Shown: one piece after another, positions 541 through 9,285 of the stretch
Numbering within the stretch: position 1 is the stretch's first letter
How the letters are laid out: every line of letters begins with the position of its first letter
Origin: Calditrichia bacterium
GTDB taxonomy: Bacteria > Calditrichota > Calditrichia > RBG-13-44-9
Direction: 5' to 3'
DNA: 9,386 nucleotides
Assembly: GCA_026991005.1 (NCBI GenBank)
Contig: JALXCH010000013.1
Location: forward strand, 1-9,386
Notes under the pieces: model-generated
Told to the model about the DNA's origin: nothing
Seen by the model: only the letters and a program-made list of their open reading frames with translations
Databases searched by the model: none
Translations under genes and position numbers: made by a program

Positions 541-551
541 ATAAGACTAAT

Positions 552-670
552 CGAAAGCCCGAGCACCAGGATGAAATCCCGATACGTCGGGATGAAATCC
601 CGATTCGTCGGGATGAAATCCCGATTCGTCGGGATGGTTTAAACAGGGGGCTTGAATCCAAGGATGTGTG
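552..670. repeat. Degenerate copy of the composite repeat seen at 1131-1210
   Basis: Bases 552-571 (CGAAAGCCCGAGCACCAGGA) match 1149-1168 apart from two substitutions. Bases 645-670, with GGGGGCTTGA and then AAGGATGTGTG, are a decayed version of 1178-1200 (GGGGGCTTGAGCACAGGGAT). The 21-bp tandem cluster sits between these two parts. This shows that the segments are mixed and reused as modules across the repeat island. Confidence 0.6.
569..636. repeat. Tandem 21-bp palindromic repeat, cluster 1 (3 copies)
   Basis: Three head-to-tail 21-bp units occupy 569-589, 590-610 and 611-631, followed by a partial fourth. Each junction forms a perfect 7-bp hairpin: ATCCCGA-TACG-TCGGGAT at 576-593, and ATCCCGA-TTCG-TCGGGAT at 597-614 and 618-635. 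On the plus strand the loops are TACG, TTCG and TTCG, all fitting UNCG. A second cluster of the same family is at 979-1029. The frame crossing it only yields a seven-residue repeat, so this is not coding. Confidence 0.85.
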
Positions 671-750
671 ACATTTCTTTTCACCGAAAATGCCCTGATT
701 TCTCAGGAATATCCCAGTCATCTGATAGTAACAAGAGAATATTCAACCAC

Positions 751-978: not shown

Positions 979-1029
979 CGTCGGGAAGCAATCCCGATCC
1001 GTCGGGAAGTAATCCCGATCCGTCGGGAT
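979..1029. repeat. Tandem 21-bp palindromic repeat, cluster 2 (2+ copies)
   Basis: Units at 979-999 and 1000-1020 plus a partial third at 1021-1030 belong to the same 21-bp family as 569-636. The hairpins are ATCCCGA-TCCG-TCGGGA at 991-1007 and ATCCCGA-TCCG-TCGGGAT at 1012-1029. The loop TCCG again fits UNCG. The cluster runs directly into the 67-bp duplicated block that begins at 1024. Just upstream, around 940-975, is a CTCTGCG/GCTGCGG motif followed by a T-tract, a type of sequence also common in intergenic DNA. Confidence 0.85.
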
Positions 1030-1090
1030 GATTTGCGGTCCCGACTATCGGCCTTCCCAGGCCTCTCGGGATTCCAGCCATCCCTGGCTG
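1024..1090. repeat. 67-bp composite palindromic block, copy 1
   Basis: It is identical to 1216-1282. It holds nested inverted repeats: CGGGA (1024-1028) with TCCCG (1039-1043); CCCGA (1040-1044) with TCGGG (1066-1070), enclosing GGCCT-TCCC-AGGCC (1050-1063); and CCAGCCA-TCCC-TGGCTGG (1074-1091). Two of the hairpin loops are TCCC. The minus-strand frame through both copies (908-1297) encodes the same peptide block twice and is judged non-coding. Confidence 0.85.
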
Positions 1091-1130
1091 GAAGGCTACC
1101 TTCATCTCATTATTTCGTCTCAATCCACTC

Positions 1131-1157
1131 TTGAGCACAGGGATGTGCGAAAGCCCG
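1131..1157. repeat. 27-bp dispersed repeat, copy A
   Basis: The unit begins TTGAGCACAGGGATGTGCGA and ends AAGCCCG. Closely related copies follow at 1184-1210 (B) and 1324-1350 (C). Copy A is preceded by GTCTCAATCCACTCTTGA (1117-1134), which resembles the first half of the CRISPR repeat with two substitutions and one extra T. Confidence 0.75.
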
Positions 1158-1183
1158 AGCGCCTGGAAGGGTAAAGCGGGGGC

Positions 1184-1210
1184 TTGAGCACAGGGATGTA
1201 CGAAAGCCCG
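1184..1210. repeat. 27-bp dispersed repeat, copy B
   Basis: It differs from copy A at one base. It is followed by TTTGACGGGA and then TGATTTGCGG (1221-1230), a 10-mer shared with the second half of the CRISPR repeat, and then leads into the second 67-bp block. The CCCGT/ACGGG arms form a hairpin. Confidence 0.75.
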
Positions 1211-1215
1211 TTTGA

Positions 1216-1282
1216 CGGGATGATTTGCGGTCCCGACTATCGGCCTTCCCAGGCCTCTCGGGATTCCAGCCATCCCTGGCTG
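1216..1282. repeat. 67-bp composite palindromic block, copy 2
   Basis: It is identical to copy 1 (1024-1090) at an offset of 192 bp, with the same nested hairpins. The following ~40 bp are diverged but alignable (CTTCATCTCA versus CTTCAACTCA), so the duplicated unit was originally longer and reached the 27-bp repeats. Confidence 0.85.
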
Positions 1283-1309
1283 AAAGGCCATCTTCAACTC
1301 AGCATCTCA

Positions 1310-1382
1310 TCACAAATCCCCTCTTGAGTACAGGGATGTACGAAATCCCGTTTTACGGGATGATTTGCGGGGCTATTCAGAC
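1310..1382 (-). repeat. Split terminal CRISPR repeat with palindromic insert
   Basis: TCACAAATCCCCTCT (1310-1324) matches the left part of the CRISPR repeat with one extra A. The right 22 bases of the repeat, TGATTTGCGG to TTCAGAC, are intact at 1361-1382. Between them, 1328-1360 is copy C of the dispersed repeat, with an ATCCCGT-TTT-ACGGGAT hairpin at 1345-1361. A TGA lies on each side of the insert (1325-1327 and 1361-1363), as a short target duplication would. Alternatively the two repeat families share ancestry. This end is the likely distal (oldest) end of the array. Confidence 0.6.
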
Positions 1383-2537
1383 TTATTATATTGAGTCAGC
1401 AACATGACTTAAGGGGCATAAAATGTCACAATCCCCTCTGATTTGCGGGGCTATTCAGACTAAATTACCACCAGAAAAATTATCACCCTTCTAAAAATCC
1501 CTCGTCACAATCCCCTCTGATTTGCGGGGCTATTCAGACCAAAACCATTCTGGGTATTACCTTCCTGAAATATCTGGCGGTCACAATCCCCTCTGATTTG
1601 CGGGGCTATTCAGACTTCAGACAGAAGACAACTAATCTTACACCCCATTGGCATAAGCTGTCACAATCCCCTCTGATTTGCGGGGCTATTCAGACTACAG
1701 AACGTTGCCTTTCGTGCAACGCCATCATTCATGAGTCACAATCCCCTCTGATTTGCGGGGCTATTCAGACAAGAGATGCTGCTTTTTCGCAAACGGTTGC
1801 GTAAAATTAAAAAGTCACAATCCCCTCTGATTTGCGGGGCTATTCAGACCCAATCTTGAACCTTATACAATCATCTTAATCGATGAGATACAGTCACAAT
1901 CCCCTCTGATTTGCGGGGCTATTCAGACAAGTAGAAAAGCCCAAAAAGAAAGAAATCAAATCTCTTGAGTCACAATCCCCTCTGATTTGCGGGGCTATTC
2001 AGACTGGTCATGGATGTTGGTATGGTGCTTTGATATTACCAAAAAAGTCACAATCCCCTCTGATTTGCGGGGCTATTCAGACAATGTGGAAATTCGCAGT
2101 TGGAGAACAGGTTTCAGTACCGTCACAATCCCCTCTGATTTGCGGGGCTATTCAGACCATGGAAGCGCATCGGAAGATTTCGTTACGGCGGGGGAAGTCA
2201 CAATCCCCTCTGATTTGCGGGGCTATTCAGACAAAGCCATCTGGTTAGGAGAACCGGAATCACCTATTTTTTCTGTCACAATCCCCTCTGATTTGCGGGG
2301 CTATTCAGACAGAGAGAACGGGCACGTAGAAGTTTTGAAAGAAAATCCAGTCACAATCCCCTCTGATTTGCGGGGCTATTCAGACTCTTTATAAGTTAAG
2401 CAGGAAGATATTGGGGTATACGAGGTCACAATCCCCTCTGATTTGCGGGGCTATTCAGACTTCGCGGAATGTGATGTAGTAGAATCTGTTGACAAAGTTT
2501 TGTCACAATCCCCTCTGATTTGCGGGGCTATTCAGAC
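1361..2537 (-). CRISPR. CRISPR array, 15 intact 36-bp repeats plus a partial terminal one, 15 spacers
   Basis: Intact repeats start at 1425, 1504, 1580, 1660, 1735, 1814, 1893, 1969, 2047, 2122, 2197, 2275, 2350, 2425 and 2502, and all read identically. On the plus strand the repeat begins GTCACAATCCCC and ends GGGGCTATTCAGAC. It has CCCC/GGGG arms and a GTC/GAC palindrome at its ends. Spacers are 42, 43, 40, 44, 39, 43, 43, 40, 42, 39, 39, 42, 39, 39 and 41 bp, all different. Variable ~40-bp spacers with 36-bp repeats fit type III or some type I systems better than type II, V or VI; this is inference, as no cas gene is in the window. The left repeat is broken and an AT-rich leader with a promoter lies on the right, so transcription probably runs leftwards, the repeat then starting GTCTGAATAGCCCC. 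Confidence 0.97.
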
Positions 2538-2761
2538 AGTCCCCCTGTAGATTACGTTATTTCATAAGCTACAAGGGCATTTGCGAAATTAACCCAATTT
2601 TGACCCATTTTTACCGTCTCAAAATGAGAAAATCGTACGTAAGTTATTGTTTTTATATGTGCGTAGAGAAAATTTTCGTAACTCATTGTTTTTCCTAAAC
2701 TTTTTCTTCAGCGCCCTTCTTCGCCCGATTAATTTCGCAAACACCTCATCTATCCTGTTGT
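2538..2761 (-). promoter_or_regulatory. Putative CRISPR leader
   Basis: About 220 bp of AT-rich, gene-free DNA adjoins the last intact repeat. Beside that repeat is an imperfect inverted repeat: CCCCTGTAG (2542-2550) with CTACAAGGG (2569-2577), one mismatch, 18-base loop. Further out, TTTGCGAAATTAA (2580-2592) recurs inverted at 2729-2741. A near-repeat GTAAGTTATTGTTTT / GTAACTCATTGTTTT lies at 2639-2692. Such motifs are plausible sites for the adaptation machinery or for transcription control, but that role is inferred only from position. Confidence 0.6.
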
Positions 2762-3112: not shown

Positions 3113-3358
3113 ATGCGTGGTAACCCGTTGCGGGAGTTTATTCCCGATGAACTCTTTTTCGAACTCAAAGAAAAGGGATTTTTAAACGAACGCGCCGTTC
3201 GCGATTATTACATGAAAAAACAATTCGAACAACTGCGGCGGCATTACCAACCCAAACAGATTTTTCAGATGCTGCAACGCGAATTTCCCTATCTCTCTGT
3301 GGATACGGTACGTAAAATCATTTACAGCCGGGATGTGTTTCCTTTTTGGGGAGATTAA
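3113..3358 (+). CDS. Small helical, HTH-like protein of unknown function (81 aa)
   Basis: I do not recognise the family. The gene is supported by a perfect AAGGAGG (3101-3107) five bases before the ATG, and by a protein-like sequence. An in-frame stop near 3028 and the absence of another good start upstream fix the start. Residues 1-30 are charged and helical (PDELFFELKEKGFLNERAVRDY). Residues ~37-70 look like a helix-turn-helix: a helix with QPKQIFQML, a turn around EFPYLS, then VDTVRKIIYS as the possible recognition helix. There is no signal peptide or membrane segment. It is convergent with lpxB and divergent from the CRISPR leader. A DNA-binding or small regulatory role is a guess from the fold impression; nothing links it to CRISPR beyond position. 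Confidence 0.7.
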   Translation: MRGNPLREFIPDELFFELKEKGFLNERAVRDYYMKKQFEQLRRHYQPKQIFQMLQREFPYLSVDTVRKIIYSRDVFPFWGD

Positions 3359-3428: not shown

Positions 3429-4576
3429 ATGCGTTCCAAAAAATGAACGATTTTCTCGGCGGCACGCTGGGAGGCGCCTGGTGCTCCCAATAATTCCGGA
3501 ACAGCCGCTAACTCCTGTTTCACCTGCTGGTAATAGGATTCATCTATTAAAAAGCGGTTTAGCCAACGAACCACATTCGCTACGCTGGCCTCTCGCTGGA
3601 TTAATTCCGGTACTACCTTTTTACCCAGTACAATGTTAGCCAGGGCAATCCGGTCTATTTTTACCAGATGGCGTGCAATATGGTAGGTTAAGGGAGCAAC
3701 TTTGTAGAGCACGATCATGGGTGTACCCAGAAATGCCGTCTCCAGCGTGGCGGTTCCACTGGCCACCAGCGCCAGATGGGCGTGTTTCATCAAGGAGTGC
3801 GTCTCTCCGGAAAGGAGCGTTACCCCTCTCCCCTGCCCTACGAATTTGCGATACACGTCCTCCGGTACCGTGTCGGATTTTCCTATAACCCAGTGATATT
3901 CCTCCCAGCGGGGAAACTGTACTTTGGCTCCGAGCATAATGGGAAGCAGCGCCTGCACTTCGTTCAACCGGGAACCGGGCAGAAGCGCAATTATCGGTTT
4001 ATCGGAAGAAAGCCCCTGCCGCGCGAGAAACTCCTGGCGATGGTTAATCCCTCGCAGCTGATCCACCAGCGGATGTCCCACAAAGTGCGCGGTGATGCCT
4101 CGTTGGGCATAAAATTCTTCTTCAAACCGAAACAGGACCAACAACAGATCCACATACCGGCGCATTTTTTCTACCCGTCTCTCGCCCCAGGCCCAGAGTT
4201 GGGGAGAGATGTAATAAATAACCGGAATCCCCAATTCGTGTGCTATTTTCGCCATCTTTAAATTAAATCCCGGATAATCCACCAGAATCACCGCCAGGGG
4301 TTTGTGGGAGGTAAGCCACTGCCGGAGATGACGCAAAACCCGTCGAATAAAAGGCAGATGCCGAATCACCTCTGCCAGCCCCAAGAAAGCCATCTGGCGA
4401 ATATGGTACAACAGCGTCACTCCGGCTTCCTGCATGCGATCGCCCCCGATTCCGAAGAAACGAACCGTGGGCATCCGTTCCTGCAGAGCAATCACCAGAT
4501 CCGCCGCATGGCGGTCTCCCGAAGGTTCACCGGCAATAATGAGAATTTCTCTTTGTGGTTCGCTACTTTTCATCAC
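3425..4576 (-). CDS. lpxB: Lipid-A-disaccharide synthase
   Basis: LpxB is the GT19-family glycosyltransferase that joins UDP-2,3-diacylglucosamine and lipid X (2,3-diacylglucosamine 1-phosphate) into lipid A disaccharide at the inner face of the cytoplasmic membrane. The 383-residue length is normal. Family motifs are in order: GEPSGD at 16-21, GIGGDRM at 42-48, DYPGFNLKMAK at 100-110, YISPQLWAWGERR at 122-134, VGHPLVD at 166-172, LLPGSRLNEV at 198-207 (UDP-sugar side) and ASGTATLETA near 272-281. The first in-frame start is GTG (4574-4576) followed at once by ATG (4571-4573); neither has a clear ribosome binding site, so the start could be either. It follows frr on the same strand after 128 bp of AT-rich DNA and is probably expressed separately. 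The other early lipid A genes are not here. It shows that the organism makes LPS-type lipid A. Confidence 0.97.
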   Translation of the reverse strand: MMKSSEPQREILIIAGEPSGDRHAADLVIALQERMPTVRFFGIGGDRMQEAGVTLLYHIRQMAFLGLAEVIRHLPFIRRVLRHLRQWLTSHKPLAVILVDYPGFNLKMAKIAHELGIPVIYYISPQLWAWGERRVEKMRRYVDLLLVLFRFEEEFYAQRGITAHFVGHPLVDQLRGINHRQEFLARQGLSSDKPIIALLPGSRLNEVQALLPIMLGAKVQFPRWEEYHWVIGKSDTVPEDVYRKFVGQGRGVTLLSGETHSLMKHAHLALVASGTATLETAFLGTPMIVLYKVAPLTYHIARHLVKIDRIALANIVLGKKVVPELIQREASVANVVRWLNRFLIDESYYQQVKQELAAVPELLGAPGASQRAAEKIVHFLERI

Positions 4577-4704
4577 GCCAGATTTTTAAAAAGAAATAGC
4601 GAGCCGCAGCCCGCTAATTCGGTTTTTAGGGGAAGAACCCATAATATTATCAAATTGTCTCTAACTTCTTTTTTATAAATTATGCCAGGAAGCCCGTTCT
4701 TCGG
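4577..4704 (-). other. frr-lpxB intergenic spacer
   Basis: This 128-bp gap separates the frr stop from the lpxB start. Just after frr, on the minus strand, GCCGAAG ... CTTCCTGGC can fold into a short bulged hairpin, followed by ATAATTTATAAAAAAG, which is not a real U-tract. The AT-rich middle, with TTGATAATATTAT on the minus strand, could supply a promoter -10 for lpxB, but no convincing -35 is seen. Confidence 0.35.
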
Positions 4705-5265
4705 CTAATCTTCCAGAATCTCTTTTTCTTTCTTTTTGTATAATTCATCCACTTCTTCGATAAACTTATCGGTCAGTTTCTGAATCTCATCCAGTTGATG
4801 ATGACTTTCATCTTCAGAAATTTCGTGGGCTTTTTCCAGTTTTTTCACGTGTTCGTTGGCATCGCGTCGAATATTGCGGATGGCAATTCGGGTTTCTTCG
4901 CAGAATTTTTTAACCAATTTCAACAAATCCTGGCGCCGTTCTTCGCTCAGTTCGGGGATGGGAATTCGGACCACGTTACCATCGTTGGTGGGATTCAAGC
5001 CCAGATCGCTTTGCATAATGGCCTTTTCAATTTCGGCAATCATTCGTTTTTCCCAGGGCTGCACCACCAGCAACCGCGGCTCGGGTGCCGTAACGGTAGC
5101 CACCTGATTGATGGGCACCGTCTGTCCATAGTATTCCACCTTCACCACATCCAGCAAAGCCGGTGTGGCACGCCCGGTACGAATCCGTGCCAGCTCGTGC
5201 TGTAAATGCTCGATGGACTTCTGCATGCGATGCTTGGCATCCTGATAGATTTCTTGCGTGGTCAT
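4705..5265 (-). CDS. frr: Ribosome recycling factor
   Basis: RRF works with EF-G to split the 70S post-termination complex so that ribosomes can be reused. The 186-residue protein has the standard family length and is collinear with it. The N-terminal helix carries [14 protein letters not shown] (26-39), followed by [12 protein letters not shown] (45-56) of the beta domain, [11 protein letters not shown] (101-111) and RNIRRDAN (130-137), which starts the long C-terminal helix of domain I. The highly charged C-terminus ([14 protein letters not shown]) is typical. The ATG has GAGAGG at 5272-5277, six bases upstream, within the end of pyrH. The start is two bases after the pyrH stop, so the two are co-transcribed and probably translationally linked. 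This is the usual pyrH-frr gene order. Confidence 0.98.
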
Positions 5266-5267
5266 CT

Positions 5268-6582
<1,315 letters not shown>

Positions 6583-6641
6583 TCTTTCTTCTCCTGTTCA
6601 ATTTTACCAATCACTTCCGCAATTGATGCTGAATTAATTTC

Positions 6642-6660
6642 GCCGGTTTTACTCTCCGGC
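6642..6660 (-). promoter_or_regulatory. Small hairpin over the rpsB stop codon
   Basis: On the minus strand GCCGG (6656-6660) can pair with CCGGC (6642-6646) around a nine-base loop containing the rpsB stop TAA (6649-6651). No U-tract follows, so it is not an intrinsic terminator. A hairpin in the rpsB-tsf gap could affect RNA processing or coupling between the two genes; this is only a suggestion. Confidence 0.3.
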
Positions 6661-7398
6661 CATTTCTGCTTTTTGTTTGGCTTCCATTTCCACCTCTTCT
6701 GCCTTGCGAGCCTGGAGCAATTCCTGCCCCTCAATCACCGCATCGGCCACCACTCGGGAAATCAGAGCAATGGATTTGGTGGAATCATCATTTCCGGGAA
6801 TGGGAAAATCGACCTCATCGGGATCGCAATTGGTATCCACAATTGCCACGATGGGAATACCCAATTTCCGGGCTTCTTTTACGGCAATATCTTCTTTCTT
6901 GATATCCACCACGAAAAGCATTCCCGGCAACCGCTTCATTTCCTGGATACCGGCAAAAACTTTCTTCATTTTGGCGATTTCGCGTTCGATGCGCAACCGC
7001 TCCTTTTTGGTGTACTTTTCGATGGTGCCATCCAGAACCATTTTTTCCAGAGCTTCCAGATGCCGGATGCTTTTTTTAATGGTAGCAAAGTTGGTGAGGG
7101 TTCCGCCGAGCCAGCGTTCGACCACGTAAGGTTGTCCGCAACGTATGGCTTCGTCCCGCACCACATCTTTAGCCTGATTTTTGGTTCCCACAAACAGGAT
7201 GGGTTCACCCTGCATGGCCATCTCTTTTACCGCTTCGTATGCCTTCTGTAAATTTTTTAGCGTTTTCTGGAGATCGATGATATGAATCCCGTTGCGCTCC
7301 ATAAAGATGTAGGGTTTCATTTTGGGATTCCAGCGGCGGGTCAGATGGCCGAAATGGACACCGGCCTTGAGTAAATCTTCCAGAGTAACTTTGAACAT
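6649..7398 (-). CDS. rpsB: 30S ribosomal protein S2
   Basis: S2 binds late to the back of the 30S subunit, near S1 and the mRNA exit region. The 249-residue length fits. The N-terminal signature [19 protein letters not shown] (9-27) is followed by [11 protein letters not shown] (36-46), [12 protein letters not shown] (69-80), [13 protein letters not shown] (92-104) and the second signature region with [20 protein letters not shown] (163-182) and [19 protein letters not shown] (188-206). The coiled coil inserted at ~115-155 is charged and helical as in other S2 proteins. The C-terminal ~20 residues are an acidic/lysine tail. AAGGAG (7405-7410) sits six bases before the ATG. It heads rpsB-tsf-pyrH-frr and is preceded by a structured leader. 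Confidence 0.98.
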
Positions 7399-7500
7399 AA
7401 CATGCTCCTTTTGTTTGGGTTAAGCCTCCACCGCCCGGACGCTTTTACCATCCGAGGCTACTCTCCCCGGACACCCCGTAAAAGCCAGGACGATGTGTGT
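7399..7500 (-). promoter_or_regulatory. Structured rpsB 5' leader with competing stems
   Basis: Read on the minus strand, GCTTTTAC (7478-7485) pairs with GTAAAAGC (7441-7448), a perfect 8-bp stem. Inside it TCCGGGG (7465-7471) pairs with CCTCGGA (7451-7457) over a seven-base loop. The CCTCGGA side has two alternative partners nearer the start codon: AGCCTC (7454-7459) with GAGGCT (7423-7428), and CTCGGA with the second TCCGGG (7434-7439). rpsB leaders are known targets of S2 autoregulation in other bacteria, so autogenous control of rpsB-tsf is the likely role; this is inferred from structure and position. No convincing promoter is seen between the rpsI terminator and this leader. Confidence 0.55.
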
Positions 7501-7511
7501 GATTTTTTGAA

Positions 7512-7544
7512 CAAAAAACCCTTCCATCGCCATGCGGGAAGGGT
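7512..7544 (-). terminator. Intrinsic terminator after rplM-rpsI
   Basis: On the minus strand ACCCTTCC (7537-7544) pairs perfectly with GGAAGGGT (7518-7525) around an 11-base loop, followed directly by a run of T (7513-7518 as A on the plus strand). It begins 16 bases after the rpsI stop codon. This is a textbook rho-independent terminator, so rpsB needs either its own promoter or partial read-through. Confidence 0.85.
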
Positions 7545-7560
7545 CGCGTAAATCCAGAAA

Positions 7561-7947
7561 TTAGCGTTTGGAGAACTGGAAACGTTTGCGTGCTTTGGGA
7601 CGACCGTATTTTTTGCGCTCCACTTCGCGGGGATCACGGGTCAGGAAACCACCCGCTCGCAGTTCGGGACGCAATTCTTCGTTCCACTTCAGCAGTGCAC
7701 GAGCAATGCCGTGCCGTAGCGCCTCGGCCTGCCCTGTAAGCCCACCACCGACAATGGTCGCCTTCACATCAAACTTCCCTAACGTTTCCGTTGCCTGAAA
7801 CGGTTGTTCAATTACCATCTTCAGAATGGGTCGCTTGAAGTATTCTTCTACAGTTCGGCCATTAACAATAATCTCACCTTTTCCCGGATACAGACGAACA
7901 CGAGCTGTAGCTGTTTTTCTTCGACCGGTTGCGTAATAAACTTCCAT
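7561..7947 (-). CDS. rpsI: 30S ribosomal protein S9
   Basis: S9 sits in the head of the 30S subunit, and its C-terminal tail reaches the P-site tRNA anticodon stem. The 128-residue protein starts with [16 protein letters not shown] (4-19), carries the family signature [20 protein letters not shown] (67-86), and ends in the basic tail [19 protein letters not shown] followed by the invariant SKR (126-128). The ATG has GAGGA (7955-7959) seven bases upstream. It starts 15 bp after the rplM stop, the standard bacterial rplM-rpsI pairing, and is followed by a strong terminator. Confidence 0.98.
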
Positions 7948-7962
7948 TTAATATTCCTCTAT

Positions 7963-8397
7963 TTAAAACTTTAACGGTTCCGGTTGTTGTGCTTGATGCG
8001 GATGATTGGGTCCGGCGTACACTTTCAGTTTTTTAAACATACGGCGTCCCAGTGCATTTTTGGGAAGCATCAGACGTACTGCATGTTCAATAATCCGCTC
8101 GGGATGCTTTTCCAGCATGCGCCGGTAAGGGATGTGTTTTTCTCCACCAGGATAACCGGAATGCGTGAAGTAGGTCTTCTGCTCGGCTTTCCGCCCGGTG
8201 ACCTTCACCTTCTCGGCATTGATGACAATGACAAAATCGCCCACATCCTGATGCGGAGCAAAATTGGGTTTATGTTTTCCCCGTAAAATGCTGGCTACTT
8301 GCGATGCCAGACGTCCCAGTACATAATCCTGGGCATCAATCACGTACCATTTTCGGTTCCGCATAATCTCTTCAGGTTTCGAATAATCCGTTCTCAA
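7963..8397 (-). CDS. rplM: 50S ribosomal protein L13, TTG start
   Basis: L13 is an early-assembly 23S rRNA-binding protein of the 50S subunit. The 144 residues contain [18 protein letters not shown] (15-32), the [18 protein letters not shown] block (53-70), the [12 protein letters not shown] region (74-85) and the signature [22 protein letters not shown] (108-129). TTG (8395-8397) is chosen as the start: AGGAGG (8406-8411) lies eight bases upstream, and the resulting N-terminus [10 protein letters not shown] matches the usual L13 start with a KPEE-like segment. The in-frame ATG at residue 12 has no ribosome binding site. It leads the rplM-rpsI operon behind a sigma-70-type promoter. Confidence 0.98.
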
Positions 8398-8430
8398 AAC
8401 AATATCCTCCTAAAAATTTTATAGCTCGCA

Positions 8431-8475
8431 AATTTACTGTGATTGCATAGAGCTGTCAAGTCCATTTATTTTTTT
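8431..8475 (-). promoter_or_regulatory. Promoter of rplM-rpsI
   Basis: On the minus strand a perfect TTGACA (8454-8459) is followed after 17 bp by TAAATT (8431-8436), four of six matches to the -10 consensus. A run of A and T just upstream of the -35 (8464-8477) resembles an UP element, common at ribosomal promoters. Transcription would start near 8424, leaving a short leader with the rplM ribosome binding site. Confidence 0.75.
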
Positions 8476-8881: not shown

Positions 8882-8998
8882 ATGAAAAAAGCTCAGAAAA
8901 TTTTTGCCCATCACCACGCATTAAAAAATTGCGGGAATAGCGTTCAAAGAATGGAAACGGAATGGCATATTCAGAACCGACTGTTCTCCGGATTCTAA
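8882..8998 (+). CDS. Possible leaderless 38-residue ORF
   Basis: This ATG frame encodes a 38-residue peptide beginning MKKAQKIFAHHHALKN and ending NRLFSGF. It has no ribosome binding site, but its ATG falls almost exactly at the start expected for the promoter at 8848-8876, so it could be read from a leaderless message. The composition (three adjacent histidines, one cysteine) does not point to a family. It may be a coincidence. Confidence 0.2.
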   Translation: MKKAQKIFAHHHALKNCGNSVQRMETEWHIQNRLFSGF

Positions 8999-9003
8999 AA
9001 TTC

Positions 9004-9241
9004 GGAATTTGTGAATGGAAATTCGAGATTTGGAATTTGTTAGTGTAAATTTGGAAAATAAAATTTAAAGCGTGTTATTTGGAATTTTGAGTTTGTTAAT
9101 TGTGATTTGAAGTTTGAGTTTTAGAATTTAAAGTTTGTTATTTGGTGTTTGAAATTTGGATTTTGCTATTTGTTATCTGGAATTTGGAAATTGGTACTTG
9201 ATATTTAAAACTTGTGATTTGGGATTTGCTATTTGGAATTT
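9004..9241. repeat. Heptanucleotide array, 34 units in unbroken phase
   Basis: The 238 bp divide into exactly 34 consecutive 7-base units without an insertion or deletion, with consensus G-N-N-A-T-T-T. I count G at position 1 in 27 of 34 units and T at position 7 in 31. Two weaker units may extend it back to 8990. Individual units vary at positions 2-3, for example GGAATTT, GTGATTT, GAAATTT, GCTATTT and GTTATTT. The plus strand is nearly free of C (seven in 238). Three units make seven codons, so the minus-strand frame gives a fake seven-residue peptide repeat. It lies between the promoter candidate and etfB, so it would be transcribed as a 5' UTR. Confidence 0.9.
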
Positions 9242-9285
9242 TATCAATTAAGGTCAACTTTTTAAATGAATAAGGAGGAATGGCA

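Follow-up and report, generated by a model that had tools for sequence, protein, structure and literature searches.

Introduction

Leader-distal ends of CRISPR arrays are known to accumulate repeat mutations, insertions and deletions, as described in the available part of PMC4869251. A small mobile element within an array has also been documented, with the MITE HqIRS37 sitting in a CRISPR spacer of Haloquadratum walsbyi HBSQ001 (available excerpt of PMC3119063), and REPIN-like elements have been named as a possible source of CRISPRs (available excerpt of PMC3116915). In the titles and abstract openings retrieved, which represent part of the literature and are not proof of absence, nothing concerned a REP inside a CRISPR repeat; the portion of PMC3718332 available to us likewise holds nothing on this subject.

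Here we describe a 9,386-nucleotide stretch of DNA, hereafter denoted the window, in which palindromic DNA lies between the two halves of the terminal repeat of a CRISPR array. As far as the excerpts portray the known systems, the locus resembles leader-distal decay in its position, in the intact leader-side repeats and in the altered terminal repeat, but differs in having its altered half tied to a tandem of palindromic units that bears the same motif. With HqIRS37 it shares a small repeat element within a degraded CRISPR array; there, however, a MITE occupies a spacer, whereas here a truncated palindromic fragment occupies the terminal repeat, lacks a clean duplication and has a tandem counterpart upstream. 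It is also like the REP/BIME/REPIN elements portrayed in those sources in its short intergenic palindromes and mosaic clusters, a likeness of organisation seen within this window and not one of sequence to named REP families. The locus fits as a further case both of leader-distal decay and of a small element in an array, and looks like the decay of an array end, not the clean jump of a mobile element.

The contig and its CRISPR array

The window is probably part of a Calditrichota-like contig, to judge from its ribosomal protein S2, which shares 80% identity with its counterpart in candidate division KSB1 bacterium 4484_188, and from the names of its LpxB relatives, several of which are Calditrichia or Calditrichaeota among the 120 matches listed; the nearest LpxB (P0001) is 97% identical. 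The closest genome relative by S2 is L001 (80%, among the best 80 of 590). Its DNA identity to the window is 70–72%, confined to positions 4068–8436 (four loci displayed), and its contig of 5536 nt ends before reaching the array. Twelve open reading frames, chosen from 40 listed in the 9.4 kb window, were scanned against Pfam; seven were named (LpxB, RRF, an amino-acid kinase at the pyrH position, EF-Ts, S2, S9 and L13), five gave no match, and no cas genes were found among the 12. An 81-residue frame at 3113–3358, lying between lpxB and the flanking region of the array, has no Pfam match. Degenerate, A-T-rich repeats in tandem (similar to ATTTGGAATTTG, with several periods of 7 to 42) occupy 8998–9241; downstream of them an open frame begins at 9280, and its 35-residue piece has no Pfam match.

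The CRISPR array (1425–2537, minus strand) contains 15 perfect 36-nt repeats, reading GTCACAATCCCCTCTGATTTGCGGGGCTATTCAGAC on the plus strand, and 15 spacers of 39–44 nt when the 42-nt spacer at 1383–1424 is included; it thus shows the identical direct repeats and unique spacers of similar length that define a CRISPR array. Transcription is probably from the right, the minus strand reading ...GGGGATTGTGAC, which we take to resemble the usual ...ATTGAAAC repeat end. Because the right-hand repeats are intact, the right flank is AT-rich and the minus strand ends like the common repeat, we place a putative leader at 2538–2737 (minus strand; 64% AT versus 44% in 1100–1299), and the split repeat probably represents the old, leader-distal end of the array. 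The stretch 1361–2537 has no match in phages or plasmids, and 20–21-nt pieces of two of the 15 spacers have no exact match in IMG/VR.

The terminal repeat is present in two halves

The first-pass annotation had placed both halves of the CRISPR repeat at the distal end of the array, and this is borne out. The right half (1361–1382, plus strand) is a perfect copy of repeat positions 15–36 (22 nt), reading TGATTTGCGGGGCTATTCAGAC, and lies exactly one 42-nt spacer (1383–1424) before the first perfect repeat at 1425. As this spacer falls within the 39–44 nt range of the array, 1361–1382 is the remnant of a genuine terminal repeat. The left half, hereafter denoted L2 (1310–1324, plus strand), reads TCACAAATCCCCTCT and corresponds to repeat positions 2–15 with one extra A; the equivalent of repeat position 1, at 1309, is an A instead of a G. 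The distance between the halves is 36 nt (1325–1360), slightly more than the approximately 33 bp given previously.

Owing to the extra A, L2 is missed by an ungapped search allowing up to three mismatches. Its gapped alignment to repeat positions 1–15 scores 12, a value reached by one of 2000 dinucleotide shuffles of 1–1360, two of 2000 of 540–1360 and one of 2000 of 1301–1360. The left-half match is better than chance. We considered whether L2 is a mere palindrome arm (CAAATC with GATTTG in the fold), which is possible for 6 nt and leaves CCCCTCT and a second left-half match upstream (L1, below) unexplained.

On the minus strand the split repeat has a predicted folding energy of -22.2 kcal/mol (z -2.87; 2/200 shuffles as good), and the intact repeat folds with a z of -1.06 (33/200 shuffles as good). 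The last crRNA may still be processed, the terminal repeat having retained the part that borders the last spacer. A hairpin at 1345–1361 was rejected as a terminator of the array transcript; a terminator scan of 900–2900 lists no site there.

The DNA between the halves is a truncated palindromic fragment

The 36 nt between the repeat halves (1325–1360, plus strand) belong to the local palindromic family, as had been recognised at first pass. Their hairpin, ATCCCG-TTTTA-CGGGAT, spans 1345–1361 and includes the first T of the right half. The closest copy, at 1183–1230 (plus strand), is identical to 1323–1370 in 45 of 48 positions; it is flanked on the left by GGGGG and ends on the right in TGATTTGCGG, followed by a palindromic unit (REP-A) and no array. 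Repeat finder and alignment place a further copy of the core at 1130–1157 (plus strand), directly to the right of L1, and reading by eye adds another member of the cluster at 551–671 (plus strand; GAAAGCCCGAGCACCAGGATG, 21-nt CGTCGGGATGAAATCCCGAT units and GGGGGCTTGAATCCAAGGATG), which has GGGGG to the left of CTTGA, away from the array.

The first-pass annotation interpreted the TGA on either side of the fragment as a duplication made on insertion, and here the closer comparison points the other way. The left junction reads CTC-T-TGAG, such that an extra T separates CTC from TGA. CTTGAG opens each of the three core copies in the repeat finder's alignment (1130, 1183 and 1323); a scan of 1–1400 for CTTGA also finds it at 651, in a related copy, and at 821, an unrelated site. 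GGGATGA, which contains the right TGA, recurs at 589, 610, 1025 and 1217, none of which adjoins the array; the palindrome end at 631 differs, reading GGGATGG. The GGGGG that precedes CTTGA at 651 and 1183, and which at 1183 can pair with the following AAGCCC, is absent at 1130 and 1323. Since this flank is missing, the DNA between the halves is, on comparison with its local copies, a truncated piece and not a complete element.

Taken as terminal inverted repeats plus a target-site duplication, the features of a MITE are not found here, there being neither a clean TGA duplication nor the GGGGG flank. Intergenic palindromes in several copies, as characterise REP and REPIN elements, are found within this window in the form of repeated hairpin units at 551–1370. 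The predicted REP-A fold has a z of -3.59, with none of 200 shuffles as good. Rfam gave no match at gathering threshold over the window, nor at E up to 1 over 950–2560. Tandem 21-nt palindromic units like CGTCGGGATGAAATCCCGAT occur at 561–640 and 976–1030 in the same mosaic, and a different palindrome, GCAGGCTTTCGCCTGC, is seen by eye at 839–880 in the same intergenic stretch.

These observations bear on the simplest reading of the locus, namely that a mobile REP/MITE-like element inserted cleanly into the terminal repeat and duplicated a TGA target. The two halves keep the order and orientation of the repeat, the fragment is a member of a repeated local family, and HqIRS37, as described in the excerpt of PMC3119063, provides a precedent for a MITE inside an array. 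However, the TGA on both sides is found in other copies of the family, the junction carries the extra T, the piece lacks its GGGGG flank, and L1 lies in a unit without an array; we regard a clean insertion as very unlikely. What stands of the proposal is palindromic DNA between the halves and a left half beyond chance; what falls is a single TGA-flanked insertion, given the TGAs of the other copies, the missing GGGGG and the presence of both the left-half motif and TGATTTGCGG in an array-less unit. The proposal was to be given up if every copy of the family carried the same flanks at sites without arrays. In the window this is partly so: of the three other core copies (651, 1130 and 1183), that at 1130 is flanked on its left by a TCACAATCCCCTCT-like sequence and that at 1183 by TGATTTGCGG on its right.

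Paralogous tandem units adjoin the array

Repeat finder and alignment resolve the DNA to the left of the array into two units. The second, u2 (1216–1370, plus strand), consists of REP-A, a linker, L2, the core and TGATTTGCGG; the first, u1 (1024–1230, plus strand), contains the same parts in the same order, plus an extra 53-nt copy of the core, and has no array attached. The two are 89.6% identical over the first 135 nt, after which comes a 53-nt gap before the core aligns again, and the alignment runs straight through the supposed left junction. By this alignment 1216–1370 is a paralogue of 1024–1230, and the two form a palindromic tandem to the left of the array.

At the place in u1 that matches L2 in u2 lies L1 (1117–1131, plus strand; GTCTCAATCCACTCT), identical to CRISPR repeat positions 1–15 in 13 of 15 positions. 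With its two mismatches, L1 is the only ungapped match (up to three mismatches) outside the array in the window, against 0.29 expected. The left end of u1 also carries, at 1029–1038 (plus strand), the 10-mer TGATTTGCGG, which is identical to repeat positions 15–24 and with which the right half therefore begins; a second copy is at 1221–1230. At 1029 as at 1221, the 10-mer lies between a CGGGA palindrome arm on its left and REP-A on its right, with no array. In u2 this 10-mer pairs into the REP-A hairpin (GGGATG with CATCCC), and u1 is identical there; its participation in the fold suggests that TGATTTGCGG is native to the palindromic family. It is the longest word common to u1 and the CRISPR repeat, and a common word of at least 10 nt is found in 21 of 5000 shuffles of u1.

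Should TGATTTGCGG be native, a simple joining of the array end to the tandem at this word could suffice, with the left half as the remaining puzzle; if it is not, both stretches would be derived from the array and spread by tandem duplication. The former possibility leads to an end-to-end fusion, in which a deletion removing the old array end would have joined the tandem, with its units ending in CGGGATGATTTGCGG, to the CRISPR repeat at the shared 10-mer; nothing would have been inserted, and the likeness of the left half would be native to the linker and largely due to chance. Such a fusion is a serious but less likely possibility than the history that we prefer (below). It accounts well for the right side of the locus: 1216–1370 is fully explained by paralogy with u1 (1024–1131 plus 1183–1230), the right end of u2 is the same CGGGATGATTTGCGG that precedes REP-A at 1024 and 1216, TGATTTGCGG forms part of the REP-A fold, and the shuffles of u1 yield a shared word of this length at the rate given above. 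It leaves the left half unexplained, as the shuffle tests for L2, L1 and the two jointly (1/2000, 2/2000 and 0/3000, respectively) indicate.

The same junction bears on a possible artefact. A chimera formed between repeats during assembly might be suspected in a single metagenome contig with a repeat-rich region, but the array and the ends of u1 and u2 have in common only the 10 nt of TGATTTGCGG at the junction, which is short for an assembler's overlap, and the spacing to the first spacer is normal. We consider a chimera the least likely of the explanations.

The left-half matches considered jointly

The score of L1 is reached by two of 2000 shuffles of 1024–1215, and that of L2 by one of 2000 shuffles of 1216–1360. 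The linkers of u1 and u2 are identical in 36 of 47 columns; over this 47-column alignment the joint score of L1 and L2 against repeat positions 1–15 is 26, which none of 3000 column shuffles reaches (maximum 23), a result to be read with the left-half query having been picked after the match was seen and with u1 and u2 being related, not independent. The first of the repeat's 22 15-mers has the highest score, followed by its overlapping neighbour with 25. The 9-mer TCACAATCC is found twice more in the window, at 785 and 5597.

By manual count, two changes separate L1 from the CRISPR repeat, two separate L2 from it and four separate L1 from L2, which places the CRISPR sequence at the node, or midpoint, between them. 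This comparison favours either the descent of both L1 and L2 from the CRISPR repeat or a descent shared with it.

In the converse direction, the CRISPR repeat may itself descend from the palindromic family, since loss of the core between the two TGA-containing words of an L-core-TGATTTGCGG unit would yield most of the repeat. The unit does hold, in order, stretches like positions 1–15 and equal to positions 15–24, and REPIN-like origins of CRISPRs have been entertained in print (PMC3116915, in the excerpt available). Against this, the longest word shared by u1 and the repeat is TGATTTGCGG, a simple deletion gives one T too many, and the 15 repeats of the array are identical with no intermediate. 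A search for the last 12 nt of the repeat surviving in the linker gave a match that 360 of 1000 shuffles reach; as these final 12 nt leave no trace there, the locus speaks weakly for REPIN descent, which we think very unlikely. Equally unlikely in our estimation is the broader proposition of a common descent of the CRISPR repeat and the REP-like unit beside it, whether the repeat originated in a palindromic interspersed element or exchanged sequence with one; were it true, it would give the published speculation on a REPIN origin of CRISPR repeats a concrete locus.

A proposed recombination and tandem duplication at the array end

We tentatively prefer a history, somewhat short of an even chance in our judgement, in which the leader-distal end of the array recombined with the palindromic cluster and the resulting hybrid was then tandemly duplicated. 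A truncated palindromic-repeat piece would have lodged after position 15, within the loop of the former terminal repeat, presumably through illegitimate recombination between minimal shared sequences, CT at the left junction and TGA or TGATTTGCGG at the right one, and not by transposition with target duplication. The hybrid segment, comprising the left half and TGATTTGCGG, would then have been duplicated in tandem with a period of approximately 192 nt, so that the left half also persists upstream, in u1, as a second and decayed copy. The right 22 nt may have been retained owing to their bordering the last spacer.

This history is preferred because u1 and u2 align through the left junction, with L1 and L2 both resembling positions 1–15, scoring jointly above all column shuffles and placing the CRISPR sequence at their node, because the fragment lacks the GGGGG flank of 651 and 1183, and because changes to leader-distal repeats are known (PMC4869251, available part). 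Counting against it, TGATTTGCGG at 1221 may have originated in the palindromic family and not in the array, in which case one of the shared stretches would be coincidence; the post hoc left-half query, the non-independence of u1 and u2 and the extra copies of TCACAATCC also weigh against it. Our confidence in the recombination and duplication history is tentative, and the fusion is kept as a lesser possibility, because neither history accounts for everything.

If the hybrid is real, the locus would provide a worked example of palindromic repeats dismantling an old CRISPR array end, and a site at which the relatedness of CRISPR repeats and REP-like elements can be tested; if the fusion is right, it would represent ordinary end decay at a shared 10-nt word.

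Searches for relatives of the repeat and the palindromic unit

The CRISPR repeat has no match in sets of 40, 82, 22 and 395 genomes (the last two of which overlap), nor in IMG/VR, phages or plasmids, the DNA searches having scored few candidates per genome and lacked a positive control. A looser pattern of the repeat gave five matches in four of the 82 genomes versus two for the control; as they number one or two per genome, they are not arrays.

For the palindromic DNA, positions 500–1430 gave no match in L001–L081 at E up to 0.1. The unit has no match in G001 or in 40 genomes of the phylum of G001 with a 253-nt query, few candidates having been scored per genome and without a positive control; nor was one found in 82 genomes of the phylum of G004 with an 843-nt query, a search that scored at most six candidates per genome without a positive control, so that its emptiness shows nothing. 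The core pattern with up to two mismatches gave three single matches in three of the 40 genomes, versus one for the reversed control; by eye, their flanks show nothing of the cluster, and we rejected them as relatives. Also rejected were a match to the 21-nt-unit pattern in one of six genomes, a palindrome whose flanks hold none of the other words of the cluster, and a match to the core pattern in one of four genomes, which reads as a coding region.

Three palindromic-unit patterns have no match in IMG/VR. A 15-mer pattern matched 42 stretches there, 12 of which have 22 of 23 nt in common with REP-A (on contigs L084, L092, L097, L099, L107, L109, L111, L112, L115, L116, L117 and L122); these REP-A-like stretches are probably due to chance or to one virus.
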